From Pelecanus crispus (lineage: Eukaryota; Chordata; Aves; Pelecaniformes; Pelecanidae): DNA of 64,000 bases. The notes below the pieces were generated by a model. The model was not told the origin of the DNA. It did no database searches and saw only the letters and a list, made by a program, of their open reading frames with translations. The DNA lies in assembly GCF_030463565.1 (NCBI RefSeq), contig NC_134660.1:2158001-2222000 (forward strand). Reading direction: 5' to 3'. Below are positions 22,010 through 60,117 of this stretch, piece by piece. The position numbers were made by a program, and so were the translations under genes. Every line of letters starts with the position of its first letter. The stretch's first letter is position 1.

Positions 22010-25057
<3,048 letters not shown>

Positions 25058-27443: not shown

Positions 27444-30400
27444 TCAGATTTCGGTCAGTGCCTCGGCAGGGACCAGCCCCCGCTTCCTCCCGCTGGTCAC
27501 CCGGACGAGGCCCTGGGTCCTGCCCACGCCAACGCAGATCTGGGACGGGCAGACAGACGGACGGACGGAGGGGCAGCGGGGCACCGCCTTGGCGTCGCCC
27601 CACTGACAACGGACCCAACTCGGTGCACCCCAGGGCAGCAAGGTGCTGGCACCGGCGGGGTCCCCCCCCCTACCTGGTTCTCCCTGAGGCTCATGCGCCC
27701 CTGCTCCTTGTCACCCTGCACGGCCCGGCAGCTCCTCCAGACGCTCTCGCCGGGACGGACGCGCTGCACGAAGTTGGCCGGGAAGAAGCCCAGCCGGTCG
27801 CCCACCTTCCCCTGCGGCGCGGCCGAGCGGCGGCTGAGACCCCCCCGCGCTCGCCGCACCGGTGGCCGCCCCAGCACGCGGTGGGGCTGCGAACGGGCAC
27901 CGGCTCCCGGTCGCCCCGGCGCGTTCCCCCCCCCCCAACCCCACGGACCCCCTCCCCAACCCCACGGACCCCCCCACACCCCATGGACCCCCCTGACCTT
28001 CCACCAGTCCTCGTTGGAGTCGTCCACCAGCGTGACCCTGTCCCCGGGCCTGGGGGGACGGAGGCGTGGGGCAGCGTGGGGACGTCCCCCCCTCCGCTGC
28101 CCCTGTGGGTCCGGGCCCCCCGCCCCTGCCCCACCGACCCCACTCACTGCAGCGCCAGGTCCTGGTGCTCCTGCGGCACGAACTTGTAGAGAGCCACGTA
28201 GGAGAACATGGGTGCCCCGTCCCGCCGCGCCGGCCACCGGGCAGCCTGTGGGCACAGCCAGCCCTGCCCCATGGCCCCAGCCCCGTGTCCCACCCCTCAG
28301 CCCCACAGCCCCCTGCGACCCCCCACGCCTTGTGCCCTGCAGCCCCGTCCTGCAGCCCCACGGCGCCGGGGCATCACCCGAGCCCCCCCGGTCCCACCCT
28401 TCACCCCCATCCTGCCCCCCCAGACCCCCACCTGCTGCCCGGGGCTCCTCTCCTCCACGCTGTCCCTCTGTGCTGGGGTGGCAGCTGCCGAGGCAGACGG
28501 ATGGGGGGGACAGAGTTAGCCCTGAGACCCCCCCCCAAACCCCCACCCCAGCGCCACCCCCTTACCGCTGCCGCTCGGGCTCCCCGCGCTGCTTGGGGCG
28601 TCCCCGCTCTCCTCCCCGGCCGCCACCTTCTCACCCTAAGAGCACAGGGAGGGTTTGGGGGGGGGGTCCAACACCCCCACAGTGCTCCCCACCCCTCCCC
28701 AGTTCCGGGGGGTACCTGGATGCCGGGGGGCAGCTCCGTGGGGCCGGCACCATGTGCCAGGGAGGTGCCGAACCGCAGCGCTTCGTACACGGGGTCCACC
28801 CTCGCGCTGGGCTCTGCGGAGGGGGGACGGGGGGGACGGGGCGAGTCAGGGCCCCCCCCAGCCCGGCCTGAAAGCCGGGGTGCACCCCATGCCGGGCACA
28901 GGCTGGTTCCGCGGTGCAGCCATGGCCGGGGGCTCACCTGGGGGGGGTGAGCCCTGCGTGGAGCCCCCCTGCTCCGGCAGCAGCAAGGGCGAGCTGAAAT
29001 TGCGGCGGAAAGAGGTGGCCTGGGGGAAAAAACGGGGGATTTGGGGAAAAGGGGCACCCAGCGGCACTTGGGGGGGGGGATGCCAGGACTGAGGGTGCCC
29101 CTGGGCCCCCCGTGTGCATGGGGGGGGTGCGCTCGCACACGCACTGACACCTCTCTGCCCACATGTGCCGGCAGGCACGCATCCCGGCGCACACGCGTGT
29201 GCGCAGCCACGCGCCCCGGTGCCTGCAGCCCCCCCCGGGGCCGGGGCTGTGGCGGGGGTTTCGGGGGGGGCTGGCAGGGCTCTGTGTGTCCCCCCCCCAG
29301 CAGCACGTACCGTCTTGCCGGGGCACTGCTGGTGCGAGATCCCCTCGGAGCACCAGAGGTGCACGCCGGCCTTGCACGCCTTGCACCGCAGGCCCTGCCG
29401 CGAGTTGCCTGCAGGCGGAGGGGGGGGTCACGGCCAGGGGCAGGGGCTGCGCCCCCCACCCCGCCCCCCCATCCCCAAGTACACACAACCCCCCCAAAGC
29501 CCCGGGTAACCCACCCGCGATGAGCTGCCGGCACAGCTCGCAGGGGCAATGCTTCTTGAAGACGTACTGCTGGAAGCCGTGGGTGCGTGGGGGGGACGGG
29601 GGGGTCCCGGGGCTCTGCACCCCCCCGCCCGCCCGCGGGAAGAGGCTCTCCACGCTCTTGCTCCGCAGCAGCGTCCGGAGGGACAGAGACCGCTTCAGCC
29701 GCTGCATCTGCCGGAGGGACCCCCCCAGGGGTGGCAGGGACCCCCCAGGGGTGGCAGGGACCCCAGGAGGGGACGGGGGGCAGGGACTCCCCCAGGGGTG
29801 GCAGGGACCCCGGGAGGGGACGGGGAGACCCCTTAAACGGTGGCAGGGACCCCGGGAGGGGATGGGGGCAGGGACCCCACCCCAGGGATGGCAGGGACCC
29901 CGGGAGGGGATGGGGGGACCCCTCAAACGGTGGCAGGGACCCCCACACCCAGAGGTGCCAGGGACCCCGGGAGGGGACGGGGGCAGGGACCCCGGGAGGG
30001 GATGGGGGGACCCCTCAAAGGGTGGCACGGACCCTCCCATAGGTGCCAGGGACCCCGGGAGGGGCCGGGGGCAGGGACCCCCCCCCAGGGGTGGCGGAGA
30101 CCTCGGGAGGGGACGGGGAGACCCCTCAGAGGGCGGCAGGGACCCCGGGAGGGGCCCCCCCCGCTGCCCCCCGCGCTGCACCAGCCCAGCCCGGCCGGGA
30201 TCGGGCTCAGCGGGGCTTTGGGGGGGGGCCCGGGGCCGCTCCGGGGCTGAACCCCCCCAGCAACGCCCCAAATCGGCTGCAAGCGCCCGGCACAGGGTGC
30301 ACGGTCACCGCCCCCGGTGCACCCCCTCCGGTGCACACTCACCCCCCCGGTGCCCCCCCCCGGTGCACACTCACCCCCCGGTGCACACTCACCCCCCGGT

Positions 30401-30678: not shown

Positions 30679-30850
30679 TCACCCGCCACGCCCCGCCACG
30701 CCCCCCTCCCCCCCCCGCTGTCGCGACAGCGCCGCGACCCGGTCGCGACAGCGCCGTGCTCAAGCTGCCGCCGGCCCCTCCCACCGGGGGGGGAATGGAG
30801 AGATATGCTAATCCTTGGCTGCCCATTGGCTGCCGGCCCCCATGGGGCGG
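30679..30850 (-). promoter_or_regulatory. STAC2: STAC2 promoter region
   Basis: Just upstream of the ATG at 30678 lie two copies of GACAGCGCC (30725-30733 and 30747-30755), which match the right half-site of the REST/RE1 element, within a TCGCGACAGCGCCG direct repeat. A CCAAT box on - is at 30825-30829 and an octamer-like ATTAGCAT at 30805-30812. The start site cannot be fixed from sequence. Confidence 0.45.
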
Positions 30851-30904
30851 GGCTTGCCCCCCATCACCAGACGTCGCAGACGGGGGGGGCCCTGGGGGTA
30901 CCCC

Positions 30905-31465: not shown

Positions 31466-31985
31466 GGGGGCAGCACCCATATCCCTCCCCTTAACACCCC
31501 CTACCCCTCCACTGACACCCGGGGGGGGGGGGGGGGGGGTCAGTGCCCTGCCTGAGCGCCCCCCCCCCCGCTTTTTTCTCCCCAAAATGAACCAAATCCG
31601 GGCGAAATGAAAGGAATTAAAATGCAGCGGGGGCCGCGCGGGCTGGCACAGGGCGGCCTTGGCTTCTCGCCCTGGACAGGGTGGCCTGGAATGGCGGGGG
31701 GGGGGGGCGGACACAAGGGGGGGGGACAGATGTCCTTGGCTGGGACAAGGGGACAGGGCATGGCTTTGGGAGGGGGGACGCGTGTGGGGCTGGTCCCGGG
31801 GGGCTCCGGCTGGCCACTTTGACCAGCCCCACGCGTGCCCCCCCCAGTACCCCCCTCCATTTTGTATTAACAACAAACACAGGGTGGGGACCCCCCACCC
31901 CCACCCCACTATTTACTGTCAACTCCCTCCCCAAACTGGACTCAACTGGGCCCAACTGGGCGCAGTCACCACCCCTCCCTGCGCC

Positions 31986-31992
31986 TATAAAA
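31986..31992 (+). promoter_or_regulatory. TATA box of CP2-like gene
   Basis: TATAAAA, followed by G, lies 86 bp before the ATG at 32072 and predicts a start near 32,015 with a 5' UTR of about 55 nt. It supports a real, regulated promoter for this gene. Confidence 0.75.
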
Positions 31993-32071
31993 GCTGGGGG
32001 GGGACCAAGCTGTCCCTCCCTGCTGGCACCTTCTGTGTGTGTCCCCCCCACCCCCCCAAAACCCCCCCACC

Positions 32072-35000
32072 ATGCTTTTCTGGCACGGTCAGCCCGACCA
32101 TTACTGGTCCAGTCCTGGGGAGATGTACCCCATCTCCGGCCCCGCGCTGCTCAGGTACCCCCCAATCCTAAAGCATCCCTTGTTTTTGGGGAAACTGAGG
32201 CACAGCTGAGTGCCCACCTTTTATTTTTTTTTTGGGGGGGGTCTGTTTCTCACAGGGACCCCCCCGTGCTGCCTTACCTGAAGCAAGAGGAACCCAACGG
32301 CATCTCCACCTCGCAGCCCCCCTGCCCAGCTTTCCAGTACGTGCTCTGCGCCCCGACTTCGCCCGCCGTCCGGCACCACGAGGAGACCCTCACCTACCTC
32401 AACCAGGGTGAGCTGGGGAGGGCTGGGGGCACCCCAGGGGGGTGGGACCCCCGCTCCGGGGGCTCAGCACCCACTTTTGACCCCCCCTCCCAGGGCAGTC
32501 GTACGAGATCCGCATGATGGGGAACCCCCGGGTGGAGCCGGGCGGGGAGGGACGGAGGATGCTGAAGGTGAGATGGGGGGGACCCCCCCAAAAAACTGGG
32601 GTGGAGCCCCGGGGCAAAGCCTGGGGCAAAGCTGCGGGGCAAAGCTCTGACCTGAAGAACCAGTTCAGCCCCAGTTCAGCCCCAGCTCGGCCCCAGTCCA
32701 GCCCCAGTTCAGCCCCATTCAGTCCCAGCTCAGTCTCAGTTCAGCCCCATTCAGTCCCAGTTCAGCCCCAGTCCAGCCCCAGTTCAGCCCCATTCAGTCC
32801 CCGTCCAGCCCCAGTTCAGCCCCATTCAGCCCCAGCTCAGCCCCAGTTCAGCCCCATTCAGTCCCAGTTCAGCCCAATTTCAGCCCCAGCTTAGCCCCAA
32901 TTCATCCCCAGTTGATCCCCAGCTCAGCCCCATTTCTGCCCCATTTCAGCCCATTTTGGCCCCATTCAGCCCCAGTTCAGCCCCAGCTCAGCCCCAGTCC
33001 AGCCCCATTCAGCCCCATTCAGTCCCAGCTCAGTCTCAGTTCAGCCCCATTCAGCCCCAGTTCAGCCCCAGTCCAGCACCAGTTCAGCCCCATTCAGTCC
33101 CAGTTCAGCCCCAGTCCAGCACCAGTCCAGCACCAGTTCAGCCCCATTCAGTCCCAGTTCAGCCCCAGTCCAGCACCAGTCCAGCACCAGTTCAGCCCCA
33201 TTCAGTCCCAGTTCAGCCCCAGTGCAGCTCCAGCTCAGCCCAATTTCAGCCTCAGCTTAGCCCCAATTCATCCCCAGTTGATCCCCAGCTCAGCCCCATT
33301 TCGGCCTCATTTCAGCCCATTTTGGCCCCATTCAGTCCCAGTTCAGCTCCAGCTCAGCCCTGGTGTAGCCCCAGTTCATCCCCAGTTGATACCCAGCTCA
33401 GGCCCAGTTCATCCCCAGTCCAGCCCCATTTCAGCCCCAGTTCAAGCCCCAGCTCAGCCCCAGTTCATCCCCAGTCCAGCCCCAGTCCAGCCCCGGTGCA
33501 GCCCCAGTTCATCCCCAGTCCAGCCCCAGTTCATCCCCAGTCCAGCCCCAGTTCAAGCCCCAGTGCAGCCCCAGTGCAGCCCCAGTTCAAGCCCCAGTTC
33601 ATCCCCAGTCCAGCCCCATTTCAGCCCCAGTCCAGCCCTGGTGCAGCCCCAGTTCATCCCCAGTTCATCCCCAGTTCATCCCCAGTTCAAGCCCCAGTGC
33701 AGCCCCAGTGCAGCCCCAGTTCATCCCCAGTCCAGCCCCAGTTCAAGCCCCAGTGCAGCCCCAGTCCAGCCCTGGTGCAGCCCCGTCTCTCCGCGGGTCG
33801 AGGGCCCGTGGCGGTGGGCTCAGCCCACAGCCGTGGCTGGCGGCGCGGGCCTGATCCTGCCACGCAGAGCGTGGTGCGGGTGGTCTTCCACGACCGGCGG
33901 CTGCAGTACTCGGAGCAGCAGCAGCTGGAGGGCTGGCGGTGGAGCCGCCCGGGCGATCGCATCCTCGACATCGGTGAGCGCTGGCTGGCGGGGCCTGGGG
34001 AGGGCCTGGGGGGGCCTGGGGGGGCCGTGCTCACCCCCCTCCCGCAGACATCCCCCTCTCCGTCGGCATCCTCGAACCCCAAATCCACCCCACGCTGCTC
34101 AACACGGTGGAGTTCCTCTGGGACCCCTCGAGGCGGACGTCCATCTTCGTGCAGGTGGGAGCCAGGCCTGGCCGGGGGCTTGGGGGGGCTTGGGGGGGGA
34201 CTGGGGGGGCTGGCGGGGGTCACGGCGGCCACCCCCGACCCCTCCGTCCCCGGCCAGGTTCACTGCATCAGCACCGAGTTCACGCTGCGGAAGAACGGGG
34301 GGGAGAAAGGCGTCCCCTTCCGCATCCAGATCGACACCTTCGGGGCGGGGGGCAAGGGGGACCCCCCCGAGCACCTCCACTCCGCCAGCTGCCTCGTCAA
34401 GGTGTTCAAGGTATTGGGGGGGGGGCACCAGAGACCCCAGGGTGCCCCCCATTGCTGGCAAACCCCGCCGTGAGCGTGGGGCAGCGCCCGCTGCAGCACC
34501 CTGAGGGGCTGGATGCATGAGGGTCTGGGTGCACGGGGTGTGGGTGCATGGCAGGGTGGGTGTATGGGGGTCTGAGCACCCCAGGGGTGCCTCAGGGATT
34601 TGGGTGCACGGGGTGTGGGTGCATGACGGGGTGTGGGTGCATGGGGGTCTGAGCACCCCAGGGGTCTGAGCACCCCAGGGGGGTGGGTGCATGGGGGTCT
34701 GAGCACCCCAGGGGGTCTGGGTGCCTCAGGGATGTGGGTGCACAGGGTGGGGGTGCATGGGGGGTGGGTGCATGGGGGTCTGAGCACCCCAGGGGGTCTG
34801 GGTGTCTCAAGGATCTGGGTGCATGGGGCGGGGGTGTGTGTGTGTGTGTGCATGGGGGGATGCATGGGGATCTGAGCACCCCAGGGGTCTGGGTGCCTCA
34901 GGGATCTGGGTGCATGGGGTGTGGGTGCATGGGGGTGGGTGCATGGGGGTCTGAGCACCCCAGGGGTCTGGGTGCCGCAGGGATCTGGGTGCACGGGACT

Positions 35001-36672
35001 CTGGGCTCCTGGGGGTCCGGGGTCCCCGCTGGCCACCATGGCGGTGGTCCCAGGGCCACGCTCACGGCCCCCGGTGCAGCCCAAGGGAGCAGACAGGAAG
35101 CAGAAGACGGACCGGGAGAAGGTGGAGAAGCAGCCGGCACCAGAGCGGGAGAAATTCCAGCCAGCCTACGAGAGCACCGTGCTGGCCGAGGTGGGACCCG
35201 GCCCTGGCACCCCTCCCTGGGGGCCGGGGTGCCCCCCCCGGGACCCTGCGCCCTGACCCCCTCCCTCCATCCTCAGTGCGCCCCGTGGCTGGACACGCTG
35301 GGTGCACCCCACAGCCCCCCCGGCACCCCGGGGCTGCCGTCTCCTCACCCCTTCAAGCTGCTGAGCCCGGAGAGGTAAGCGGAAACCCCCCGGACCCCCA
35401 GCGCCCGCCGGGGTCCCCCGCTCAGCCCCAGCCCCTCTCCCCGCAGGGTGTGCGTGTCGCCCGCCTGCGCTGCCGAGAGCCCCGCGGAGGGTCCTGGCGA
35501 GGTGAGGGTGCCACGGGTGCAGCCTTGGGCACCCCTATAGCCCCGCCATGGCCCCCCCGAGAGGCCGGCGGGGCTGAGAACGCGCCCGCTCGGTTCATGC
35601 CCCGGCTGAGGCTCCGCTGCTGCTGCTGGCAGGCGCTGAGCCCCTGCGCATCCCCCCTGGAGACGCAGCAGTGGCTGCACAAGCGTCGCTTCTCCGCCTA
35701 CGCCCGCGTCTTCGCCAACTTCACAGGTGAGGCCGCGGGCAGCTTGGGGCCAGGGCGGGGGGGACAGAGCCACCCCCCGTGGCTGTGACCCCCGCCCTGA
35801 GCCCCCCTGTCCGCAGGCGCCGACCTGCTGAAGCTCTCCCGCAGGGACCTCATCCAGATCTGCGGAGCCCCTGATGGCATCCGCCTCTGCAACGCGCTGA
35901 CGGGCAGGTGGGCTCCCGCATCCCGCGGGCCACCCTGGGGCCTCTTTTCGGGGACCCCCGGGAGCCTCCGCGGTGCCTGGCCGGATCCCTGCACCCCCCG
36001 CCAGACCCCTCTCTGCCCCCGCAGGTGCCCCCGTCCCCGGCTGACCCTCTATGTGTCACGGGAGCCCGCCGGCGGGGCCGAGGGCGCGGAGGATGGATGC
36101 TCAGGTGCGGGGCGGGTGGCGTGGGGTGGCGTGGGGACGGAGGGTCCGTGCTGATGGCCCCCTCCCCGTCCTCGTCCCGTCCCCAGGGCCGTACCAGGAG
36201 GTGCAGCTGGAGGAGCTGACGGCGGCCGAGCTGACGGGGAAGCTGGCCGAGCTGCTGGGGCTGCCCGCGGGCCAGATCCAGCGAGTGTCCCGGCAGGGAC
36301 CCTCCGGCATCCACATCCTCATCAGCGATCCCGTAAGGAGCGGGCAGGGACACCCGGGCGGTCCTGGACCCTGCAGCCACCCCCACCCCTCGGGGTCCCC
36401 AACCTGCTCCCAGCGAGGCTCGGCCCCTGTGGGTGCCCCTCGCTGCAGCGGGATGGGGGCGCGGGGAGGGGACACAGCCCCGGCCCGACCCCCTCACCTC
36501 GCCCCGCAGATGATCAGGAACCTCCTGGACGAGACGTGCTTCACAGTGGCCATCGGCAAAGGTAACGCGGCGGCCACGGGCAGGCAGAGCTGGGCGGGGG
36601 GCGATGGCCCCCGGCTGAGCCGTGTCTCCGGCAGCGCCCGGTCCGGAGGGCTACCAGCTGGTGCTGCGGTAG
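32072..36672 (+). CDS. CP2/grainyhead-family transcription factor, extra TFCP2/TFCP2L1/UBP1 paralogue, 479 aa
   Basis: Fifteen exons: 32072-32154, 32256-32407, 32494-32567, 33868-33973, 34048-34154, 34258-34410, 35080-35190, 35277-35374, 35447-35501, 35633-35726, 35817-35907, 36025-36104, 36187-36332, 36510-36561 and 36635-36672. All borders are GT/AG and phases agree (1440 nt). Residues about 50-262 form the CP2 DNA-binding domain, with [52 protein letters not shown] and [14 protein letters not shown] conserved. A SAM-like domain follows (about 317-385, [10 protein letters not shown] to [11 protein letters not shown]), then a C-terminal oligomerisation region with [10 protein letters not shown]. 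The N-terminus [12 protein letters not shown] resembles TFCP2L1 rather than TFCP2 or UBP1. The C-terminal region and the proline-rich linker are diverged. It should bind CP2 sites as a dimer or tetramer in the nucleus. Its place between STAC2 and FBXL20 excludes the three known genes, so no symbol is given. Confidence 0.93.
32655..33795. repeat. CAGTTCAGCCCC minisatellite in CP2-like intron 3
   Basis: About 1.1 kb of 12- to 17-bp units of CAGTTCAGCCC(C) and CAGTCCAGCCCC, with TTCATCCC and CATTTCAGCCC variants and higher-order copies. The array is almost free of stops, so artefactual proline/serine/glutamine ORFs run from it into exon 4. Confidence 0.92.
34500..35010. repeat. GTGCATGGGGGTCTGAGCACCCC minisatellite in CP2-like intron 6
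   Basis: Units of roughly 40-90 bp with GTGCATGGGGGTCTGAGCAC, CCCAGGGGTCTGGGTGCC and TCAGGGATCTGGGTGCA blocks repeat about seven times. A short (GT)n run lies at about 34836-34850. Confidence 0.87.
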
Positions 36673-36939
36673 GACCCGGCCCCCGGAGCTGCATCCCCCC
36701 CGGGAAGGGACATCTCCCACCGGAGCGAGGTGTGCGGGGATGGAGAGAGGAAGCCCGGGGCTGGCTCAGGCCCCAAAGCCCACCCTGCAAGCACGGTTCG
36801 CCCTCCCTCCATCCCCGCCGGGCTCGACGGACCCCTCACCAGAGGGGCGAGAGGCAGGGGTGCCGGCCCTTCCTCCCCGCGCTGATGGCGGCTGCATCCT
36901 CGCGCCCACCGCGTTGCCTTCGCCTCGTCCTTGTTTTGT

Positions 36940-36945
36940 ATTAAA
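36940..36945 (+). promoter_or_regulatory. Polyadenylation signal of CP2-like gene
   Basis: ATTAAA about 270 bp after the stop codon, preceded by a T-rich stretch. It gives a compact 3' UTR. No coding sequence is visible from here to about 37,760; this stretch is GC-rich and intergenic between two convergent genes. Confidence 0.7.
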
Positions 36946-37762
36946 GAATGGAACCAGCCGGCCCCGAGCCTGGCATCGTCCTCACGGCGCCGGCTGGGGT
37001 TTGGGCGAGGGGGTCCCCGGGGGTCCCGCACCCGCCGCGGGCTGGGAGCAGCCCCGTGGCCTCGGGGAGCCCCTGGGCCAGGTTGGGGAGCGGGGCCGGT
37101 GCGGGGCAGCCCGGGGGTAGCCCCTCTTCCCCGGCGAGCCCCCGGCAGCCGCGGGGTCAGCGCCGAGGAAGCCCGGGCAGAGCGGGTCCTGTGCCACGCC
37201 GCGGGGACGGAGCCGGCCACGGCGCAGAGCCCGGGGCAGCCTGAGCTGGCAAAACCCAGTAAACGCCATATTTCTGCGTTTGGGCTGGGAGAACGGGTTG
37301 TTTTTAACACCGAGTCCTTCCCCGCGAGCACCGTCCGGCGCGGCTGCTGCCGGCACGGAGGGCAGAGCTGGGTGGTGGAGCGAGACGGGGGAGGCCTTCG
37401 GGAGGAAGCGACTCGCAGGGCAAAGGATGGGTTTGGGATGAAGAAGGCGGCGGCGGTTTCCCCGGGGAGGAAGGATGGAGAGCCGGCGGAGCCGGAGGAC
37501 GCGGGCCAAGGAGCAAGGAGGGCACCGGGGCAGCGCAGCCGGGACACGGGGGTGGGCGATGGGGGTGCGGGCAAACACGGAGAGAGGGGAGGGCAGCGAG
37601 CGCGGGGGCAGAGACCGACACGGGCCCAGGGACCGTGGTGGGTGCAGGGTGGGGAGGAGGAAACACCCGCGACCCTCCCCAAAATACCCAGCCCTCGCTG
37701 CCCCCGCGGGGCTGGCGTACAGCGCGTCACAGACAAGGGACGACCTCGCTACATATATATAT

Positions 37763-39156: not shown

Positions 39157-39190
<34 letters not shown>

Positions 39191-42712: not shown

Positions 42713-45700
42713 TCATAGGATGATGCAACATCTGCAGAAGCGTTGTCTGCTGCCCCCGACCGAAGGAGGTGGAGTCACAGGCGCGAAGTAGGCAAGGATT
42801 TTAATATTGGGTAAATGGGTCTGAAAAGACAAACACAATGTGTAAAGTGACAAGGGTAGTGGCAGCGCAAGAGTCAAAGAGCAGTTGAAATAGGCCTGGC
42901 TTACTCGTTTTCAGACTACAAACTAACACACGCATAAAAACTAGAGCTGAACTTTCAGTTCACCAGCATGATTTCCCCACAGACTGGATTAGCAAGTTCT
43001 TTGTTACCAGAAAACAGTTACAGGCAGCAGGAAAAAACGATGCTCTTTCCTCGCCATTAAGCCTGTGGCAGCCATGAGGAAACAGAACATTTAACTGTAC
43101 GGATCTGTGTTCTCTTTGCAAATAAAATGTTATCATTACACCTCTTTTACAAATGGAGGAATAGACGCAGGAGGGAAATCACTGGGACACGGAGTGCCTC
43201 AGACGCCCAGCAGCCAGCGACAGAGCAGCCCCGGCTCTGTCGCACTCGCAGGGACACGCAGCCTCCCTACAACAGCCTGGCTTTATTACAGGATTAGCTG
43301 GAGTTATTTATATGGGAGGTGTCAGTATAAAGTGCACTGCAATCTACGCCGAGCATATAAAGTCGTCGAGAGGAGGTGCCATTCTACACCTTTGCTGTGG
43401 CACTAACTCGCGGTCCCACGTTTAGGAGAGCGCCGTCGTGTACGAGTGCTTGTAAAATGAGCGCTTGCACGCTGGGTCTCCTCTGTTCCTTTCTGCTACT
43501 ACTCAGTGAACACAGCAATTATCTCTCTTCCCTACCAGCTACCATTCATCCCCATCCAATCTGCTGAGTGCAGGACAGCTATTAATTTCATAGATGATGG
43601 TTCTCACAATACTTTTAAGAATAAGCACCAGATTGTGAGGAATCTGAAACCTCAGCCCCCCCCCTCCTCCCACCGGATAAAGCGTTCAAGTCATAGCCTT
43701 AGCAGTGTTGGTTTTTTTTTTTTTTTTACCTTGAGTCTCTTGATCCCTGCCCGCGTGATTTGCTGACAGTCGTACAGTTCTATCCTCTTCAAGCTGTGGC
43801 AGCTTTTCAGGTGCTCCAGGGAGGCATCCGTGATCAAAGGGCAGTTGTCCAGCTCGATCACCTCCAAGCGATCGTGTGCGCAGGCGCCGTTTCCCAAGTG
43901 ACGAATCCCGTCGTCCGTGATCAGCTCACAGTGGGACAAACTCTACATCCAAAACACAGCAAGTTAGCAGCCTCTGCTATCGGCACACAGAAGCCAACAC
44001 CCTGCCGGGGGACACTGTGGGATGAGAGAGAAGATGGCCCACATTTCACAGGTTTGGACTGGTTTGCCACACTGGTTTTTTGGACGGGTCTATACTCCCT
44101 CCTTGCACCGGAGCCACTGCTGCGCTCCAGGCGCCGGGCTCTGGGGGCCTCCAACGACCAATGTGCCTGCAAGGGGAAAACCCATAGCCAAAGCACAATG
44201 GGAAAGGCAGCTGCTGAACGGAGACCAACGGGGCCAGGACGGCACAGAAATGGAGCAAATACCTCTGCTATCGAAGAAACTACATTTGTAAAATCTGTGG
44301 CTTTACACATCACAGGAAGGACCTTGTCACTGGGTCTAAGAACCAGCAGAAATACAATGTCACCTACTTGGTGCATTTTTTGGAGGGGCTGCATCTTAAA
44401 AGTTCTCGAGAAGGAAGTGGGGCTTGAATTAGGAGACAGCATCAGCCTGTTGCTGTGTTGACAGGCACAGCGTGCAGAACAGATGGCTGCACAGGAGAAC
44501 CCACTGACTGTATCCCCCCACCTCCCAGGACAGGTTTTCTCATGATGACGACGGAGCAATACACACAGGGACGCAGAGGAGGCCGAGACTAAATTCCCAG
44601 AAATTTAGACCAAGAGGAGCATTGCTTTCCAGAGCCAGCAAGGCTTTCCAGGTCTCAGCTGCCCAGCTCCATACTACAGGTGAGAAGAGCTGCGGTCTCC
44701 TCTCCCATGGATGGACTGACAGCCCAGTCTGTAGACAGATTCTGCTAGGTTTGCTGAGGACAGCCAGAGGCTGGTACCAGGAGAATCCAGTGTCCTATAA
44801 TTAATTTTCAGGCAGCTGTGGGTGCCTGGCATATGATTAATGCTAGCAGTAGGGGAGGGACAATAGGTTCTTCAGGGTCAAGTTTCTAGCCGAATTCTTC
44901 CAAGCCTTCGCAACACGTCTATGAAGTCAGAGACACAAATCCCCATGGGCAGTGCTTAAAATCCCTTTGTTTATAAAAAGAAAATGCTGAAAGGTCTCAC
45001 TTGTAATACTCACCAGAGCCTGAAGCCGTGGACAGTGTATGGAAAGCTGGATTAGTGTACTGTCTGTTATCTGAAAAAGAAAAAAAGAAAAAGCCCTTTC
45101 ATGCTGGGTGCTCTGCACAAGGACTTTTTTTCCCCCCTACAAAGGAAAAACTGCAAACTTTTGCCTAATCCCTGACAGCGTTCCCCACAGGAACTCATCT
45201 CCTGTGTGACCAAGTTTCAGATGTACAGATTCTTCCACTCCCTTACAGAAATCAACTCATGTCCTTAAAGGACTGCTAAGACACAGGTATTGGGTTTTTT
45301 GAGCTTCCTTAAGTAGCTCTCATGAAATAAGCTCCCAGTTAATAGAAGCAAGTGAGAAGACCTCTTCAACACCCCAATGTCTCCTAAATGTTTGTCTCTG
45401 AAAGTACAAGAGGTGTCCAAATCCCCTTCCAACAGCTTGGTGGACTGCTGAATCGTTCCTCTTTATTCTTCAGGAAGAAAGAGACTCAACACAATGGCTT
45501 TCTAATCTAAAAGCATTCAGAAGGGAACTTGCTGGGCTGTCTTTGTTCAATGCAGTCAGTCCAAGGACACAGCCCAATTTTTCTTCTTCCTTTTTTGGGT
45601 TAACTTTAAATCACTTCCTGTCTGGACTACCGTAATTTCCGCTTGTGATCTCCTGAATTTCTGCCCTGTAAACATCAGGAAGTACAGAATACTGGGGTCA

Positions 45701-48700
45701 CGCTGTTCTCTTGGCAGGAAGCAAAATCCTATTATCTCCACTGTCTGTATCTGAATCGATTTCAAATCTATCCTTTGGGTTAGAGATTTTTCATGGACTC
45801 TTGAGTAAATTCAACTATTTTCCCCTGTAAATGCTACCTTGAAATGGTTATCACCTTATGGCACATACCCTACAGAACAGTGCGTAGTCACATATAAGAG
45901 ACCTCCTTAAAACTAACGAAGACAGCTGCAGCACAGGGTTATAAGAGACTCAACAATAACAGCCTCATTACATCCCACTGCCTTTGAGGAAGGCTCAGGG
46001 TAGCACGGGCACCCCAGCTTTATTTCAAGTTGTTGCCGTGTCCTTTATAAAATCATTGCTGTTCAAACAATCTGGCTATGTTTTTTCAAAACAGAGCTAA
46101 CTTCCATTATTTCTAGCAAGAGATATATATAGATACATATATATATATATATATCTATCTATCTCTCACAAACCTTCCCTTGCCTTACACACAGAGATCT
46201 CACTCTGGGACTTTATCTTGTGTCAAGGGTCACAATTCACACATCTATTACATGACCTTCAGGACACATCTATTCTTATGAAAGATTTCTTTTATTATTT
46301 ACAGTAGCATTCATTACTATGAAATATGAACAAAGGACCAAACCGCAAAAGTAATGTTTTCTTATCCAAATACACCCGATCTTCTTGCTCAGGATTCTAA
46401 ATCAAGTTCTGATTTAGAGACAATCTACTTTTTCACAATCTTTCCACGCTGCTGTGACTGTGCTAAAAAAAGTAACAGCCAGAGGTGGCACCTCCTACCT
46501 GGACGCACTCTTCCAGGTCCATTTTTTCAAGCTCGTGGCAGTTCTAGGAACAAACAAAAGATTGCACTTAGTTTGTGCGTTCAAAGTTCAGACAGCAAAT
46601 ATAAACACAACTACAATAAGCCAGTCCTTTTTAAAAATGAAGGTTTTTCTTCCATGAAACATCATGAGGGAAAGGGAAGTTTGCTGCTTCTTTACGAACG
46701 CTACCAAATATAGTAAAGGCAATCTAGCAATTTCACTCATTTAAAGGCACCGAGGTTTTTTATTCATAGAAAGTAAAGGAGGTTAAATTTAGGGTCAGTT
46801 GTATAGAACACAGATTAATCTAGAAAAAACAAACGGTAAAGTTCATAACTCTCAAGTACTTAACATTTCAAGTAGTTTGGATGCACATTCTCCTAGATGT
46901 GTGGGTCAGGACAATGCCAAAAATTACATACAACTTAATTTTTGTAACTTAGCTCCCACTCAAACGTCGACATCCAAAGCATTACAAAAATCTACATTCA
47001 AGAGAAAGCCACTGTTTGTTCATATCTATCATGAAAGGAAAGCAAAGATACTTGATGAAAAAGTGGAAACGAGCACTTACCCTAGCTAGAGTGGTAAAGC
47101 CCACATCTGTTAGTTGAGAACACCTTGCAACTTCTAATATTCTGCACAGAAAGAATTTATAATAACCATGGTGGAGTCATTTTGCTTTTCAGAGTATTTC
47201 ATTAAAAGCTTCCAGCAACCCAGAAAAGTTTGACCTGGTTTAGGCTGTGTTCTCTGAGAGGATAATTTGCACAGAGTATCCACCCCTCTATACCTGAGTG
47301 TAGGTCACAGGGAAAGAAAAAAAGAAGTCAGGCTAAAAGGGAACTCCAAGGGTCATCCAGCCCGTGCCCTGCTACGAGGCAGGGAGGTCTAATCTGACAC
47401 ATGTTGGACTAAGGTGCTCTTAAAAACCTTCACTGCTGGACACTCCACAACCTCCCCAAGCAATCTCCTCTGCCTTCCACCCAAAATACAGATCCTGTTG
47501 TGAAAAAGGGTGTAATACACGACAACCTGGCAGATGGGCATGAAAAGAATAAATATTTAATGCCACGACAGAAGCGTCTGAAGTCTTCTAAGAGGCGAAC
47601 TGCTTGCTTCTGTGATAACAGATAAACTTGCTGGCAGACAGTTACCGCAGCTCTACAGGGGTTTGCTTCGCAACATTAACGTATTTATCCACCTTTACAG
47701 AAAAGAAAGCCAACTTGCCTAAAGCGCGTTATGCATTTTACCGTATGGAGCTTAATACTGTAAAGCTGCAGCTGAACATAAACACAGGAGCCATTTGGAA
47801 CCAAAACCATGTTTTACCTTCCTCTTTCACAACTGGTTTCCATACACTTGTATGCTGCACTTTGTACCCATAATTCTTTAAATGAGCTTCTCACAGAAAA
47901 CAGTTGTGGGTTCCCCCCCCCCCCCCCGAAGGCATGTATTTTATGCCATTTAAAACAGGCCACTCAGCTGTTACAGATATCAGATAATGAAACTGTCTCT
48001 TCTTTCTGCACCTGGCCATTTTCTGAATTATAGTGAAGTCTTCCTGAAGAAACTTGTCCTAATAAAAAAAAAGGTCTTAAAAAAATAAAGGAAACACCTG
48101 CAGAGATGTCACTGGAAGCCCACTCTGTCAAGCAGAGTGAAAGTTAGCACAAATTTTGTCTGCTACAAAATCATCATGAAAACCCTGTTAATGTCACATG
48201 TCAAGAGGAAACAATGTTGTTTAAATGTGTTTTCAGTTCCCAATACAAAATGAACCTAACCTTAACTGTTTTTCATAGAAGAACAGAAATAGAAGAACAG
48301 AACTGCTACTAAGCGAGTCTATTGGCAGTGCACACCACCACGGCACGGAGCTCTTTTACCACTGTTTCACTCGCACAAGTTTAGAAACCAGAAGTTTGGG
48401 TAAAACGACGACCTTCCCCCAGCAAACGCCTGGAAAAAGCTCAGTGATAAAAAGCGCACTTTCAGAAAGACATTAGAGTCTAAAATGGCTCAAATATTAC
48501 ACGACCGTGTCACCAAGAGCCTTTGGTCAACATGCAGTGGGTCACTGGAGCTCAGGTAACTCTGCATGAAAACTTACCTAAGCCGTGGGCAGTTCTGTCC
48601 CAGGGCGTTCAAGACGGCATCTGTAATGTTAGAGCAGCCTGAAGCACACAAGGATTGTAACTTGTGGCATCCTCTGCATATTGTAATGAGACCATCATCT

Positions 48701-51700
48701 GTTATTTGCTACAAGAAAAACAATAACACCATCACAAGCCATAACAACGTAGGTGGAGGTGCAAGGCACTGCATATTTTCCTTCTCAGACTTCCAACCGG
48801 GCACTTCACTGAGGCCAAGTTATGCTTCTTTCAACCCAAAAATGCGCTCAAATATTTCACTGGAGCAGCCGAAACAGGATAAGCCACACTGAAGTGACTT
48901 GTAAACATTCGGAAAGTGATTCCACATGCACGGAAATGTTTCTGAGCTTGGGCCACGTGAGCGACGGGGGAAGGCACGGTAGCTGCAGGCCTAGACTCAG
49001 TCCCCTGCCTTCCTCTGCAGCCCTCGCTTGTTAAGACTTTCTTGGCTGAAGCTCAGGGGAAAAAGTGCCTAACAGTCAGAGTTACCCACAAAATAAGCAG
49101 CAGGTTGTTTTCACAAACAGCCTTTTAAAAATAACACTTTGGTGGTTTGGGACCAAAACCTAAGCTGCGAGAGACGGGCTTACAGCCCAGATCACGTTAA
49201 ATTCACCCCGTGGCACCCCAGCTCCATCAACCCGCTGCGTCCCCGGACACACAGGGTCCGTCCAGCCCCGCGTGCTCTGCTCACAAATCTGGGCTGGCAA
49301 CAGCGCACAAATCTGCTCCAGATGCTTCCCCGCATGAGCACAAAGGGCTGGGACGCGGCGTGGCCGCGTCGAGGAGCCGCACGGGATCAAGAGCAGCGCA
49401 CGCAGCGGGATGAGGGAAAAAGGACAACAAGTGGCAGAGGCCGTGTGCATGCTGGAGGAGCAGGTTAAGCCTCCCTCAGTTCTTCGGTTCTGGATTTTTC
49501 AGAGGCAGCCAGGCTCAATTGCCACAGAAAAGCACCAACCTAGGGACTGGCACTGCTGCTTTTAAAATAGCAAACAGCAAGTCTGTGGGCTGGTAAGCCC
49601 CAGCGCTGGAGTGAGATGAAACAGAAACTGAGGAGAACTTGGTATTTTCAGTTCAGGAGATCAAGAACCTTATCAGTTTTCTTCTCCCTTCCACCTGCTT
49701 GCCTCTCCCCTTCCTGCCTCTCCCCTAGACGCCAGACGCAGGTCTGGAACTTGCTAACAGTCCAGCTCCTCCTTTGCAAGCACCCAGTCTCGGATGGATG
49801 GGCACCAGTCCCTAGCCAGTCCAGTAACTGGTAAAGCCACTCCTCAAACGGGACCGGGAAAGGACAGCCCTGCAGCCCCCAAAGGCCTTGCCCACTTCTG
49901 TGGAAGAGACTGCCCAGTTCCCGACTGCATCAGACTCACTGCACGAAGGTATGTACAAAGAGCCCGTTCCAATTTCTCTTTTGGCATAAATATACATTTT
50001 TGGCACTGCAGAATAATGGGTTTACAGCCCTTCTGTGCAGGGAAACTGCACTTCTTGGTTCAATTTCATAAAGAGACCGGAGGAACCGCCTGGCTAGATC
50101 ACCACACAAACACTCCAGCCTGACGGAAAGAATTTTTCCAACTAGTCCTGGAAATGAGTTTAGAAGCCCCATGGGCAGGGCAAAGAGACAAACAATTCTG
50201 ATAAAGTGAATGCTATGACGCCGTTTTGGGGGCTTATTCAACATTACTGAATGCTACCAAAAAGCTGTTTTTCATCAACTATTTTTAAAAGTCTCGTAAA
50301 TTTACAATTGCCCTGTCTGCACAGATGATGACGTTTCTGGGATGGAGTACGTTCTGCATGGTTCTGCTTAGGGACGGCCTCTAAATGCACAACAATGGCT
50401 GAGTTAGGAAATCATAGGAAGCTTTACTTACTAAGCATGTTTGGAGGTTTAAAGTCACCAGTTCAGGACAGTGTGCACCAATGTATTTCAGAGCTTCATC
50501 CTCAAGACGGAAAGAAAAAATTTAGAGACAGAAGCAACCTGTTAATACTTGAAGCAGTCTTCAAAATAAAGCTTTGAGAACAATAAAGCATCTGTGGTTT
50601 GGATAGCTATGGGGGAGGAGGGCAATGCACTGCAATCTCAAAATACACAGCAATAACTGCATGCCTTTTTTTTTTTTGCCTTTTTTTTTTTTTTTAACCC
50701 AGTCTCAGGAACAGAGTTCAAAGACCCACAACACTGAGTTACTGATTTAAAGAAAAGCTGATCTGATCAAACATACATAATTAACAAAGCAAGTAGTGAA
50801 ATCAGAAACTATTTACAGGAATTAAGGAAATGCTTCACTAGTGAGGACCTGTAAGTAACACCGTTTTATATTGCAATACTGGAACTCAAAAAAGGTCTTA
50901 TTTCAATGTGAGGAGCACAAACATATCCAGGTTGCTTTCTGATGACAAAAAAGTCCACTATTCTTAAATCTGTAAGAACAGATGGCAAGTAATTGATAAC
51001 AAGGATGTATTGCCATCAATATTACTCAAGACTCCATAAATTACTAGAAACTCAAGCTGTTTCTGTGACCCGAATTCTCAAAATAGGCTGAGATTGTTCT
51101 ATCTTTAATCAAGCCATTTTTACAGCCATGTAAACCCATCTCACATATTAAAAATCCAACAGCAGTATAAATTTAGAAAAACTACTGACTATAGCCCTTA
51201 CAGCTGGGCTTGCTTGCGCGCACAAGGGTATCACTGCTTTGTGCACATAACCAGTGTATTATTGCTTCGCTTACCATAACAAGCTCTCAGGACTTTCTGT
51301 GTCCATGCACAGGAGAAATATGCTTTTTGCAAAATAAAAACATATAGCTGTTTATCTATACACAGTAGACAAAAATGGCACTTATTGACTCATACTTAAG
51401 GAATCCCTATGCCCAAGGAAAAAAACCAAATCCAAAACAAATAAGCACTGTCAGCGTTCGGGTACAAGGACCTAACAGATCAGAGATCATTTCCAGGTCT
51501 ACCTCGAGGCTCTTAAAACTCTCAGGAGTCTCTGGGTCACAGGTTTCAAATCCTGCAGGTTCAGTTTTACTCTCCTTTTTCAAGGACAAGATTCCGAGAT
51601 ACGCATTTGCTCCTTTCTAGCCTATCTGTCTGCATTAGAAAGACCCCAGCCCACTTAACTCCTTTTTTTTTTTTTTTTTTCTACTTAGTCCCAACATTCT

Positions 51701-54700
51701 TTGTGAAATAGCTTTGCAAGGAGCTCTTGTTCATTAAAAGAGTAATGCTCAAGGCTGATGTTCCCCATACCCTGGTTCATAATTGATGTAACTCCTTAGT
51801 AAAGTTGTAATACAGTGAAGTATTTAACACATTCAACTTTTCAAGGATTCACCAGGTAAGACAGTAAAGAAAGATTGAAGGGAGTTAGTCTAAATAACAA
51901 AAAGTATAACAAGGGGGCAAAAAAACCCCTTTCGGCTGTAAGAGTTAGTGCACCATTTATATATTCCAAAGTACAAGCATCGCAGTCTCTGCAGCCTCTT
52001 CAAAATATACTGTTATAGCTCAAGAGCTGTATGATATACTTGAGGGAATAGTGCTGTGCTCCTGCCTGGCTGCAGAGATCTTGTCAAGGAGTCACATACA
52101 CGGTGACTCTCTTTGACTAACTAGAAGATCCAAACGACACGTAGAGGAAATTCTATCACCAGCGCTGACGAAAGTACAGTCGTGCTTTCTATAATTTTCC
52201 GAGCCTTCAGAAACTGATGGGTCTAGCCATGAATAACAAAGTTATCTCCTCTTTAAGAAAGTTTGCTCAATGTGTTCCCGACGGGGAAAAAAGAAGAATG
52301 ATTCTACAGCTAGATATGCAATTTGTTCACTGTCCCACTATTCATGCTGAGCTCAAAGCTATTAAAGAATTTCAATAAAAGCAGTTAATCTCCAACAGAC
52401 ACATTGTGAGTAATTCCAGTAACGTAACATTTCTGGAAACAGAAAAATCCACGATACTTCATCCCCCTACTTTCAGTTACAGCAGAAATAAGCCAGCTGT
52501 TATTATTTAATTTGAGCACTCTCCATAGAGCCATACCTGCGTGCAGCCTTTCAGAGACAGGGCTTTGAGTCCACCACAGCCTCTCACCAGAGCCTGGATG
52601 CCATCCTTAGTCACTTGGTCGCACCAGGAGATATTCAGCTGTTCCAGCAGTGGGCATCCCTCGCTTTGGAGGTGAAAGGAAAAGCGTGGGAAGCTTGGTT
52701 TTGTTTTGGAAAGAAATCCTGCTTCAAGCCAGAATCTAGGAAATTCCCATTTCTGGAACCCACGTGAGCGCAGATGTACACCCGCACCGCCCCACACACC
52801 CGCGGGGGACACGTTTGTCAAACACCATCTCCAGATGCGAAGAGCTCTCCAGAGGCAGTATCAGGAGCTCTAAAGCAGGGTGTTAGTAGGGTAGAAGACC
52901 ACCGATTTATCCCATTTTGGACGCCTCCCCGCTCCTAAACAAGGACAGACACTATGGGCTTTCTGGATCTAAATACAGCCAAACCACCCTCAACAAAAAC
53001 CACAGATAGGGCTGATTCCTGCCATGCTGCTTCTATCTTTCCAGGTGTAACTTTGCATTTGCAAATAGCTGCCAGCAGGAGTAACACTCAAGCGTAATTT
53101 GTAATTAGGAAGAGAGATACATGCTATCATGTATTTAAGATAGCTGCAGCACAAATTTGACCACGTGAAATTAGAGACAAGGATGAAGACCCTCAAGGGA
53201 AGGAAAAACCAGGCTCAAAGTATTTTCATGTAGCTACAGAAATAATTTAATCATTCATTTGTTCTTTCAAATCTGTGTTTTCTTCTGGTGTTTAGATTCA
53301 CCCTCCAGTATTCTTTCCCCCTGTGATACAGCTTTCCTGTATTTTCTTTTATTCCACTGGTATATCGCTTGAATTTTTTTTTTAATAGCGTGGCCTCTAC
53401 TGTTACCTTTAGTGGGTTTTTTTGCCTCCTTTTCTCTGTCCCAATATCTTCCCACCAATGTCTGTCTATCCCTTCCTTTTCTAGATTACTTGGAAATTCC
53501 ACTTAGCACATTTAAGCAGTTATATGTCTCCTAAGCAGTTTAAAAAGACAAATAAGTCACATGCTGGTGTTCACCTTCTAGCTACGTAAACAACTGCTAA
53601 ATACGCAATGGTACACTTACAATAAAGAAGTTGACTGTTAGTAAATGAGCATTTTAAAAAGGCAGACTAAGACTTTAGTCTCCCCAGAAATCCCTCCTCC
53701 AAGACTTTTAATAGAATATAATTCTTCTTCTACTGCTAATAACTATTAGGACAGATACAAAAAAGGTCAAGTGCAGCTTTTAACCGAGTCGTCCTCCTCT
53801 GCCTCGGCAAACGAGGAGGCACAACGTGCGAATGCTGAGCTCTGCTGGGGAAGGCCTGAATTCTAATCACAGTTACACCTCAGCCTATGTCAGCCTACAT
53901 CAGTCTCCTCCAAGGCACAAGAGACACATGGGGCAATGGTGGATCAGACTATCTGGAAACAACTGGCAAAAGTCAATGTTGTTGACTCCTACCTCAGTGC
54001 TTTCAGAGACAGGTTGGTTATGGAAATGCAGGAAGCCAAATCAAGGTGCCTGAGTTTAGAGCAGAACTTACCGAGGCTGGTACACGTACTGAAAGAGAAC
54101 ATACAAGACACACTCATGCAACAGATTTATTCAAAGTCATATACATTTCATATGACATGCACTGTATTATCTACCGCACGCACAAGCCTGGCCTTCCCTT
54201 AAAAAGAAAAAAAAAAAAAAAGGGATGGAGAATGTAACACGGTGCACACAGAAAAGGGGAAGACAGGGCAAACGGAGATGAGAACGTTACTCACGCATCT
54301 GTGATCTTGGTACAGCCATTTAGGTTCAATACTTCAATATTTCTGCAGTTCTGGGCAAATGTCCTTTATTAAAGGAAAAGGAAAGCAGTATTTTTCAGGC
54401 AATATTTAACTTCCAGTTTGTTTGGGTTTTTTTAACAGCATTTGTTTTAACCATAACACATCAGATACAATTTTACAACATTGTCTCAAACAAAATGAAT
54501 ACATAAATAAATAATGAGTAAATAAATAAATAAAATACATTATTTATGTTGTTCCGTATCTTGCCTTGGGATTTCCCAGCCTAAAGGCAAAAGCTTCTAA
54601 TTCAGTGCCAATTACTACTTAGCCTGTAGCAACAGCTGGCATTATTTTAACAAGAATTGAGAAAAATGGCTACTGCATGAAGTTAAAAAATGGTAAATTA

Positions 54701-57700
54701 AAAAGGCTTGTATGTTACCGCTTTCGATGTTTTAAGTTAGACACACAGGCTAAAGAACTTGTTTCCGAAGCGTTCATAAATTATTCCAATCCTCTGTGGT
54801 TGTAGAAACCGAATCGTTCTTTACACCACATTTAAGAGCAGAAAGAAGCCGTACCACTACCTTAATGCATTGTCTCCCACTTCTTGACAGCCACGCAGGC
54901 TTAACTGCCGCAAGAAACCCCCACATCTTTTAGAAATATTCTCAACTACCCGGCCCTGTCGGAGACAGAAAGAATTACATTAAAATCCAAAAGTCACCTG
55001 ATCATTCAAAAAGTTGAATTCAAGTTTTGCAGATTAACAACAGTCTGTTATTCTAGGTACAAGAGTGCTAGGAAAACAAAAACACCTTGATAATAATCTA
55101 AGGCAGGGAGAGGGAGAATTATTCAGCTTCTGAAGATGGAGAGACAGGGAACAATTACTGAAAGCCATTCAGGCTCATGACTGAGGAATTTCGGCCAGTT
55201 CAGAGCTCCCACACATCGATACAGACTACCCAAGAAAGATGAAAGCACCAATGCCATTGCTACAACATGAGCAGTAAGATTTACAAATACGTACAGTCAA
55301 TGTACTATAAATGGATATGCTTAGATTTCTATTCAAAACAGAGATGAGGCAGAACCAGCCCACGAGTTTTATTCTCACAGAAAAAGGGATTTAAGCATTT
55401 GTGTTCAAGAGATCTAGAAAATGCTTTTTAAATTTCAAATTTGTAACTAATGGAAGCCTCCAGAGACCCCACTATAAGCTAGCATTTACCCAGCTATTCC
55501 TCACTGCGAACAAGGTGCAAAAACCATTGAGAGAATATTTGTATCAGTGTCCAGAAATTCAAAAACCTGCCCCTCTACTTTAGTCTACGTGGTTGTTCAT
55601 GACGGAACAGGAACTTCACTCGGTTCTTCAAGTACTAGTTGGCATTTAAGAGCTCTATAATGATGAAGATATTCTTCTATGGTCCTTTTCCAGTGGGGGG
55701 AAAAAAAAAAAAAAAAATCAATTATCCAGCTCAGTACAACCACAATACTGCAATCAAAAAAGGGACACCAGCTTAGCTAGATCTCTGCACGAGCTTCTGG
55801 TGACATCTGGCCACTTGCTTTCGGGGCCACAGGAGCAGCTCTGGAGCGGCAGCGTGCTGCTCAACGCTGCCCTGGCCGCAGGCCCACAGAGACTGCGGCT
55901 CAACCCGCGCAGCCGCGTGGAAGGGCTAGAAAATCTGAAAAGTCCGTTTTTGAAACTCCCCTAGCAAGCCGATGAATTCATATGCTTGAATTAGAGGATT
56001 CAAACACGTTTGTATATAGAATTGACATCAACTGATGGATTTACATTCCTTTAAAGCAAACAACGTTTAGGACATCAGAAAGTCTAGCAGGTACTTTCAG
56101 GTGAGGTGCAACATATTCAAGCATTTTGTTTTAAAAGGGGAAGTCCGTGCTTATGCAAGAACATGTATTTGATGTATAGAGCGGTGCTAGAGAACAAAGA
56201 GACATTAAAACCATGCAAAAACCACTCAAGAATGCAAAGAGCCTAGTTTGTATTCACAGCACTCCTGCCTCCCTCCCTCCTCCACAGACCAGCGACAGCA
56301 GCAAGGCTGAGCAGCTCTGTCCACGTTTCCCGCTACCTCCACAGACCAGGCACCACGGATAACTTTGCTCTACCTCCGTGAAAGTAAATAATTACACGGG
56401 CCCAGAACTTTCAAGGCACGTTAAGAGATAAAATATTTATTATCAAGAACAAAAATCACACCATTTACTTCCTTCAAGTCTCAGGCCACTTGGACCGCTG
56501 CAAGCACGCAGAGTCACAGTATCACAGGCCTGTTCCTTTATCTGCGCGTCTCAGCTGCTTAGCTACACAGCTGGCAGAAGGAGATTATTTTAACTCTTTC
56601 CTCCACAACGTGTGTATTTCCCACCAGTTCCCGCAAGGTGTGAGTCTGCAGTCATCATCCGGCTTATGCCTCCGTCTACAATGAGTTAAAATGATACAAC
56701 TCCCTAGCTCCCTCCTCCAACATGTTTTAAAGAGGATATAACATCCTGATAAGAAACTTAAGGGTTGTTTTTTTCCCTCGTCCCTTTTCCTGATTAATGC
56801 AATTTTAAGAACAGCACGACAACAGCATCCGTTCCTATCAGCGCCGAGTAGCCCGCATCTAACAGATTTAGAACAGCTACAATGAAGCATTTCCAAAGCT
56901 GCATCTTTTAGGAACAATTTTGACCTTGCCCCCCTGAGTCATCTTCACTTACGTTTCAATTTTTGATATGAAAAGACAGACAGGAAAGGACAGACATATT
57001 GCAGGCCATGTTTCAAAAGACAGTCAGTCTTAATGGCGTAAGTCAGTGCTGTGTTAACATTTCAGCGAAAGGAAAAAGTAGCCTAAATTCTGCTATACAG
57101 AAGCAGCAGTCTTCCACAAGAACATACCTATTCTACTTATTTTTGTTTTCAGAACACACACAAAAATACTTTCCTTCTATTACTACCTTTAAGTACTGAT
57201 ACAGATATCTAATTCTGTCCATTTTCAAAAGCTGAATGGATTGCCAAGGCTTTAAAGACTCCCTGAAGCTAAGAAGAACTGAAATTAATGGTTCCTATCT
57301 CTAGGGAAGGTAAAAAGGGTTACGCTGGGAGTATTAAGCCATTCTAGGCTGTAATTACATTTTTAACAAGAAAAATGGGTTTGTATGTCATTTAATTATA
57401 CCTGAATATCCGTCTGGAAATTAAACAGGTCAATTCGCTGCCAGTTACTGCCATCCAGGGCCAGAACATTCCATGCCTTTATTGGGGAAAAAAATGTAAA
57501 TGTGTTGTTAATATGAAGAAAAAAAAAAAAAACAACAAACCACCAACCAAAACCAAAAAAAAACCCCCCACATGCCAGTGAGGACCTAGTTACAATTTGG
57601 TCCTTTCAGAAACAACATTCCGTCTCAGATGTAAAAGCAACAAGTAATTACAGCCAACCGTGCAGTTACCAGAATCGCCTGCTCGGAGAGGAGTGCCCTC

Positions 57701-59881: not shown

Positions 59882-60117
59882 CTGTAACAGGAATAAAAGA
59901 CACCTTATTGGTTATCTACATTTAAAACAAAGAGAACATGGAAAACAAAGGGAGGAAGAAAAAAAAAAAAAAAAAAAAAGACTGGAGACAGCAAAACTTC
60001 TTTGTAATTCAGTTGAAAGCTGAACTGTGAAAAGAAGCGCAGACCTAGCAGTTAACAAGTGAAAGCAAAACACAGATACTGAGCCACTGTGAAATATTAA
60101 TCTCACACCTCGTAGTA

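Follow-up and report, generated by a model that had tools for sequence, protein, structure and literature searches.

A CP2-family gene between STAC2 and FBXL20

The stretch of DNA analysed here, a 64,000-nucleotide part of the Pelecanus crispus genome (contig NC_134660.1, designated C18, positions 2158001-2222000; hereafter the window), carries a gene of the CP2 family of transcription factors on the forward strand at positions 32072-36672, which is referred to as X. Splicing of this interval joined 15 exons into a reading frame of 1440 nt including the stop codon, which encodes a protein of 479 amino acids. GT-AG ends were found at all 14 introns, and the spliced frame contains no internal stop. 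Thus, the complete 15-exon CP2 gene with intact splice sites that a first-pass annotation had proposed at this position is borne out by the open frame together with the domains described below. The TATA box and the polyadenylation signal claimed for it are also there as motif matches only, namely a TATAAA upstream and an ATTAAA downstream of the coding span, and the context of the start codon is CCACCATGC. Because 14 introns are present, X is not a retrocopy; nor is it a pseudogene by way of a broken frame or broken splice sites.

Three Pfam domains were recognized in the X protein: CP2 (PF04516, residues 52-244, E = 1.3e-52, 178.7 bits with a cut-off of 25), SAM_3 (PF18016, residues 315-373, E = 5.9e-17, 61.8 bits with a cut-off of 22.6), and GRHL1_C (PF25416, residues 379-478, E = 1.9e-13, 50.5 bits with a cut-off of 27), which follow one another in the order known from LSF. 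Its best solved relative is the DNA-binding domain of TFCP2 (8y7v, 366.8 bits, E = 1.6e-108), whereas the GRHL1/2 structures match at 82.7-85.1 bits, which puts X on the LSF side. GRHL1-3 have the CP2 fold and the C-terminal domain in common with X; however, they match it far more weakly, and X possesses a SAM domain, the feature by which LSF proteins are told apart from GRH proteins (as stated in a passage of PMC2873413). With a CP2 domain, a SAM domain and a C-terminal dimerisation-type domain, and being nearer to LSF than to GRHL, X is an intact gene of the CP2/LSF subfamily.

Human proteins, their sequences not drawn from database records, were used as queries for the neighbouring genes. 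The order found in the window is CACNB1 (-), RPL19 (+), STAC2 (-), X (+), and FBXL20 (-), which we take to be the human 17q12 order plus one gene. The placement of X between STAC2 and FBXL20, as first annotated, is confirmed by exon matches on both sides, and X and FBXL20 stand tail-to-tail with their ends about 6 kb apart.

The three known CP2 genes lie on other contigs

The assembly searched (1.314 Gb, 310 contigs) contains at least 16 CP2-domain matches, such match counts being lower bounds, and these form seven loci. Three of the seven are GRHL-type (C2:151.9 Mb, C3, and C16), and the other four are CP2-type, namely C5 (TFCP2L1), C2:52.18 Mb (UBP1), C32 (TFCP2), and C18 (X). The three strongest PF04516 loci had first been taken as the CP2 genes, which proved wrong, as all of them are GRHL-type. 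TFCP2L1 was rebuilt complete from this genome (475 aa), TFCP2 from exon 2 to the stop codon, and UBP1 as exons 2 to 14 plus a last exon that was located separately; the first coding exons of TFCP2 and UBP1 were not recovered. All three rebuilt genes showed GT-AG splice sites and open frames over the recovered exons, neither of which was imposed in the final rebuilding step. The lengths of X exons 2, 4, 5, 6, 7, 10, 11, and 14 (152, 106, 107, 153, 111, 94, 91, and 52 nt, respectively) recur in the paralogues, an agreement that arose partly by construction, since phases were imposed and 10 of the 42 exons had their ends adjusted manually. Within C2:52166501-52196000, no convincing match was seen to the insert known from a human UBP1 form, which may be absent from this genome or too diverged.

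Because TFCP2, TFCP2L1, and UBP1 are all present on other contigs, the possibility that X is one of these genes in a translocated position was ruled out. X is about equally far from each of them, with 57.1% identity to TFCP2 (445 positions), 55.7% to UBP1 (449 positions), and 56.1% to TFCP2L1 (465 positions), so the proposal of a fourth gene stands; the three known genes of this genome are 69.6-78.1% identical to one another. By region, the identity of X to its paralogues is 67-72% in the DNA-binding domain, 55-64% in the SAM domain, and 44-47% in the C-terminal domain, with 32-36% for the linker and 29-46% for the N-terminal part.

Divergence and phylogeny of X

An unrooted tree was built from X, the three paralogues of this genome, and three human proteins. 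The human and bird proteins paired for all three known genes, and in the best tree X lies outside every pair; it was thus not found inside the clade of a known gene that is missing elsewhere in the genome. The human and bird TFCP2L1 proteins group without X at 97.4/97, which suggests that the split of X predates the parting of birds and mammals. The terminal branch of X is 0.91, compared with 0.02-0.08 for the other terminal branches; X evolves fast. In the approximately unbiased (AU) test over seven topologies, X outside the TFCP2L1 pair obtained p = 0.971 and X with the UBP1 pair 0.123, while three placements were rejected, namely X beside the TFCP2 pair (0.016), beside bird TFCP2 alone (0.008), and beside bird UBP1 alone (0.006).

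By itself the tree settles neither the sister nor the age of X: it leaves TFCP2L1 and UBP1 as possible sisters and speaks against TFCP2. TFCP2L1 (CRTR-1, LBP-9), towards which the first-pass annotation leaned, resembles X in its domain order, exon plan, and MLFWH start, agrees with it at sites including S143, L156, and L161 (TFCP2 numbering), and is nearest to it in the best unrooted tree, although the two are 56% identical. That lean therefore agrees with the best tree, but the sister relation is unproven, X with the UBP1 pair having an AU p value well above rejection. UBP1 (LBP-1a/b) is likewise 56% identical; the human protein compared has no MLFWH start, and its insert has no counterpart in X. 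TFCP2 (LSF, CP2c) comes close in the DNA-binding domain (72% identical) but is 57% identical overall, and its pairing with X is rejected by the AU test, though not by the Shimodaira-Hasegawa (SH) test.

Paralogon position and origin of X

The position of X in the genome is more informative than its phylogeny. A search with a HOXC9 homeodomain gave 79 matches, the best four of which fall on C32 (99% identity), C5 (95%), C2 (86%), and C18 (89%), that is, on the contigs of TFCP2, TFCP2L1, UBP1, and X, respectively. Under size-weighted placement of four genes, the chance of one gene on each of these contigs is about 4e-6, a figure computed post hoc that owes most of its weight to the small contigs C18 and C32.

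The neighbours of UBP1 were compared with those of X. FBXL2 was located at C2:52160490-52161779 (+), being 70% and 78% identical to FBXL20 in two matched exons, and the UBP1 frame (-) ends at C2:52165729, converging on FBXL2 in the tail-to-tail arrangement also seen for X and FBXL20. UBP1 and FBXL2 are listed within a single small interval in mouse and human (in the part of PMC2715105 consulted). The STAC2 query gave 24 matches, 6 of them in STAC2 itself and 18 elsewhere. The first of these 18 lies at C2:53.45 Mb (E = 5.1e-9, query residues 194-242) and was taken for STAC; the seventh, a weak one at C32:0.95 Mb (E = 6.2e-6, query residues 194-241), ranks behind matches on C1, C13, C3, C1, and C12 and is less certainly assignable, as a putative STAC3. 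These two matches fall on one and the same STAC2 exon, whereas the majority of the remaining 16 are confined to the general SH3 part. UBP1 thus shares with X both the tail-to-tail FBXL2/FBXL20 gene and a STAC-family exon on the same contig.

TFCP2, TFCP2L1, UBP1, and X are therefore distributed over four HOX paralogons with paralogous neighbours, as would be expected of a quartet that arose through the two whole-genome duplications (2R) at the root of the vertebrates. Based on the HOX9 contigs together with the FBXL2/FBXL20 and STAC-family neighbours, X is very probably the HOXB-side member of a 2R quartet, an intact fourth CP2 gene kept here and lost from mammals. In such a quartet, UBP1 would represent the HOXA side, X the HOXB side, TFCP2 the HOXC side, and TFCP2L1 the HOXD side, so that TFCP2 (C32) and TFCP2L1 (C5) differ from X in location too. 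The human family list in the cited part of PMC6585022 comprises six genes (GRHL1-3, TFCP2, TFCP2L1, and UBP1), none of them on 17q, which makes loss of X in mammals most likely.

On the rival account, X arose later as a lineage-specific duplicate, such as a sauropsid copy of TFCP2L1, and landed between STAC2 and FBXL20. The MLFWH start and further stretches of X that match TFCP2L1 would fit such a copy, and in the AU test the grouping of X with only bird TFCP2L1 stays short of formal rejection (p = 0.059). However, it would have to be chance that the copy landed beside FBXL20, at the site corresponding to the UBP1-FBXL2 locus, and in the matching tail-to-tail orientation; X also lies on the contig of the HOXB-type match, the bird and human TFCP2L1 proteins group without it, and its 14 introns contradict a duplicate made by retrocopying. 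We consider a late duplicate improbable.

Several points nevertheless weigh against the 2R origin. The tree's three human sequences did not come from database records. Placing X within the TFCP2L1 clade is borderline in the AU test on the bird side and also on the human side (0.051), so that the tree alone would exclude a late TFCP2L1 duplicate only borderline, and the more conservative SH test rejects two of the seven topologies (X inside the TFCP2 pair, 0.031, and inside the UBP1 pair, 0.041). Paralogue-specific sites common to X number 8 for TFCP2L1, 8 for UBP1, and 4 for TFCP2. When GRHL proteins were added as the outgroup, X was placed with TFCP2 and UBP1 (97/60) and the TFCP2L1 pair broke (0/23); this rooted tree, the outgroup branch of which is 4.2, was not relied on. 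A neighbour test with CLASP says nothing either way, as no match to the family came up here or in any of 14 controls.

Constraint on the X protein

A codon model (431 ungapped codons, four paralogues, one fixed tree) rejected omega = 1 on the X branch (lnL -4927.60 vs -4887.78, 2dlnL about 79.6), with synonymous sites saturated; thus, the neutral evolution that a dN/dS near 1 would have indicated is rejected. Because of this saturation and of the G+C content at third codon positions (0.90 in X, compared with 0.34-0.66 in the other paralogues), the omega estimate of 0.016 is not meaningful. The rejection shows protein constraint over most of the history of X, not necessarily now. We infer that X is functional and expressed.

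It could be argued that X is a relic, that is, an open frame no longer expressed or selected, in view of its long branch, its linker with just 32-36% identity to the paralogues, and the loss of a glutamine that is invariant in eight relatives (see below). A relic is difficult to reconcile with 14 of 14 GT-AG introns and 479 codons without a stop, with the rejection of omega = 1, or with the retention of the DNA-binding domain (67-72%) and the SAM domain (55-64%) while the linker diverged, and we regard it as very improbable.

Residues of the DNA-binding domain and predicted function

X was compared with eight relatives, consisting of six CP2 proteins (three each from this genome and from human) and two GRHL proteins (GRHL1/2). 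It retains 204 of the 274 residues on which the six CP2 proteins all agree, and 51 of the 57 on which all eight relatives agree. Among the six substitutions at the latter, five are mild (K80R, K114R, V116L, I187V, and I235V, TFCP2 numbering), and the sixth is Q234L, at a position occupied by glutamine in all six CP2 and both GRHL proteins; TFCP2 has Gln at this residue where X has Leu. The DNA-binding motifs, initially described as preserved, are therefore kept at most positions, though not at one invariant glutamine. Since the CTC codon of X is two base changes away from either glutamine codon, a read error is unlikely. The lysine at 236 and the basic GADRKQK segment are kept. Near the N-terminus, the LKQE motif of X corresponds to the SUMO motif FKQE at K30 of mouse CRTR-1, in which SUMO restrains activity (PMC2908540, in part), while the second motif of TFCP2L1, LKAE, is lost in X (GKAP).

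X would act as an LSF-type transcription factor whose p53-like CP2 domain binds paired half-sites of the CNRG type, and its SAM and C-terminal domains would build homo- or hetero-oligomers with TFCP2, UBP1, and TFCP2L1. CP2 proteins form homo- and heteromers, and their DNA-binding unit is thought to be tetrameric (a passage in PMC2908540). Most likely, X works as an LSF-type transcription factor, its expression, oligomers, and DNA target being predicted from sequence. The divergent linker, the divergent N-terminus, and Q234L suggest that its DNA affinity or specificity is altered relative to the other three proteins. Given Q234L with lysine 236 retained, X may either bind DNA with altered strength or specificity or dampen its partners, of which the plain transcription-factor reading is preferred.

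The alternative, which is compatible with a quartet origin, is that the X protein is produced and forms oligomers, yet is a poor DNA binder, and would thereby naturally inhibit the other CP2 proteins. A laboratory form of TFCP2 that acts as a dominant negative carries Q234L/K236E (PMC10667816, in the part cited). X has one of these two changes, at a position that is glutamine in all eight relatives compared, and its SAM and C-terminal domains are recognisable; however, it lacks K236E, keeping lysine 236, and retains the basic segment, and the literature passages covered do not describe what Q234L does by itself. An inhibitor is accordingly unlikely, though it deserves more weight than a relic or a late duplicate. 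A bolder form of this idea would make X a 2R-born natural dominant-negative LSF that kept oligomerisation and lost the glutamine, tuning the three CP2 factors in non-mammalian vertebrates, with mammals having lost the brake; this we hold to be rather doubtful.

Other features of the window

The features are collected in Table 1. The ARL5 query had no match within the window. Several repeats accompany X: an 11-bp minisatellite (CCAGTTCAGCC), repeated about 103 times with 80% matches, nearly fills intron 3 at 32660-33784 (+), intron 6 contains G-rich tandem repeats with some units of about 80 bp (34505-35005), and the interval from the STAC2 matches to X holds several G/C-rich tandem arrays that overlap one another (29715-31532). 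The G+C content is 0.74 and 0.68 around X (28-36 kb), 0.64 at 36-40 kb, and 0.42-0.47 in FBXL20 (from 40 kb), the sharp fall being located within 28001-44000. A tRNA-Ile with the anticodon TAT (91 nt, 2022-2112) was found by two programs in agreement.

Table 1. Coordinates in the window of X, its exons, domains and motifs, and of the neighbouring genes
Feature	Position	Strand	Basis
CACNB gene, named CACNB1 by position (query = family stretch)	7309-11028	-	protein query
RPL19	22781-25054	+	protein query
STAC2 exon matches	27447..29710	-	protein query
TATAAA, 86 bases 5' of X start codon	31986..31991	+	motif match only
X, whole coding span, 15 exons, 479 aa	32072..36672	+	splicing, Pfam
X exon 1	32072..32154	+	MLFWH start common to TFCP2L1 of this genome
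X exon 2, 152 nt	32256..32407	+	spliced model
X K37 codon of LKQE, psi-K-x-E SUMO-type motif	32281..32283	+	motif match to K30 of mouse CRTR-1/TFCP2L1
X CP2 DNA-binding domain, exons 2-7	32326..35136	+	Pfam, structure match
X exon 3, 74 nt (paralogues: 77 nt)	32494..32567	+	spliced model, paralogue comparison
X exon 4	33868..33973	+	spliced model
X exon 5	34048..34154	+	spliced model
X exon 6	34258..34410	+	spliced model
X Leu220 codon CTC, at TFCP2 Gln234 position	34393..34395	+	sequence, alignment
X exon 7, basic segment retained	35080..35190	+	spliced model, alignment
X exon 8	35277..35374	+	spliced model
X exon 9	35447..35501	+	spliced model
X exon 10	35633..35726	+	spliced model
X SAM_3 domain, exons 10-11	35636..35902	+	Pfam
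X exon 11	35817..35907	+	spliced model
X exon 12	36025..36104	+	spliced model
X C-terminal dimerisation-type domain (GRHL1_C)	36035..36666	+	Pfam
X exon 13	36187..36332	+	spliced model
X exon 14	36510..36561	+	spliced model
X exon 15 with stop codon	36635..36672	+	spliced model
ATTAAA polyadenylation-type signal, 3' of X stop	36940..36945	+	motif match only
FBXL20 exon matches, query residues 35-436, first exon unmatched	42716..59883	-	protein query

Significance for the CP2 family

The subfamily has been described as three genes (PMC6213935), and its mammalian members have been counted as three (PMC7471608), in the parts of these papers cited here. Among the matches listed in the open-licence PMC literature, no title or abstract opening named a fourth vertebrate CP2 gene; automatic database annotation may well carry X already under a LOC number. 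TFCP2, TFCP2L1, and UBP1 have roles in embryonic stem cells, the kidney, and ionocytes (according to passages of PMC2908540 and PMC12768278), and with a fourth gene, the redundancy among these three may, outside mammals, have to be interpreted in terms of four genes. X completes the four-paralogon CP2 set on the HOX contigs and, with leucine in place of an otherwise invariant residue, offers a natural test of the role of Gln234.

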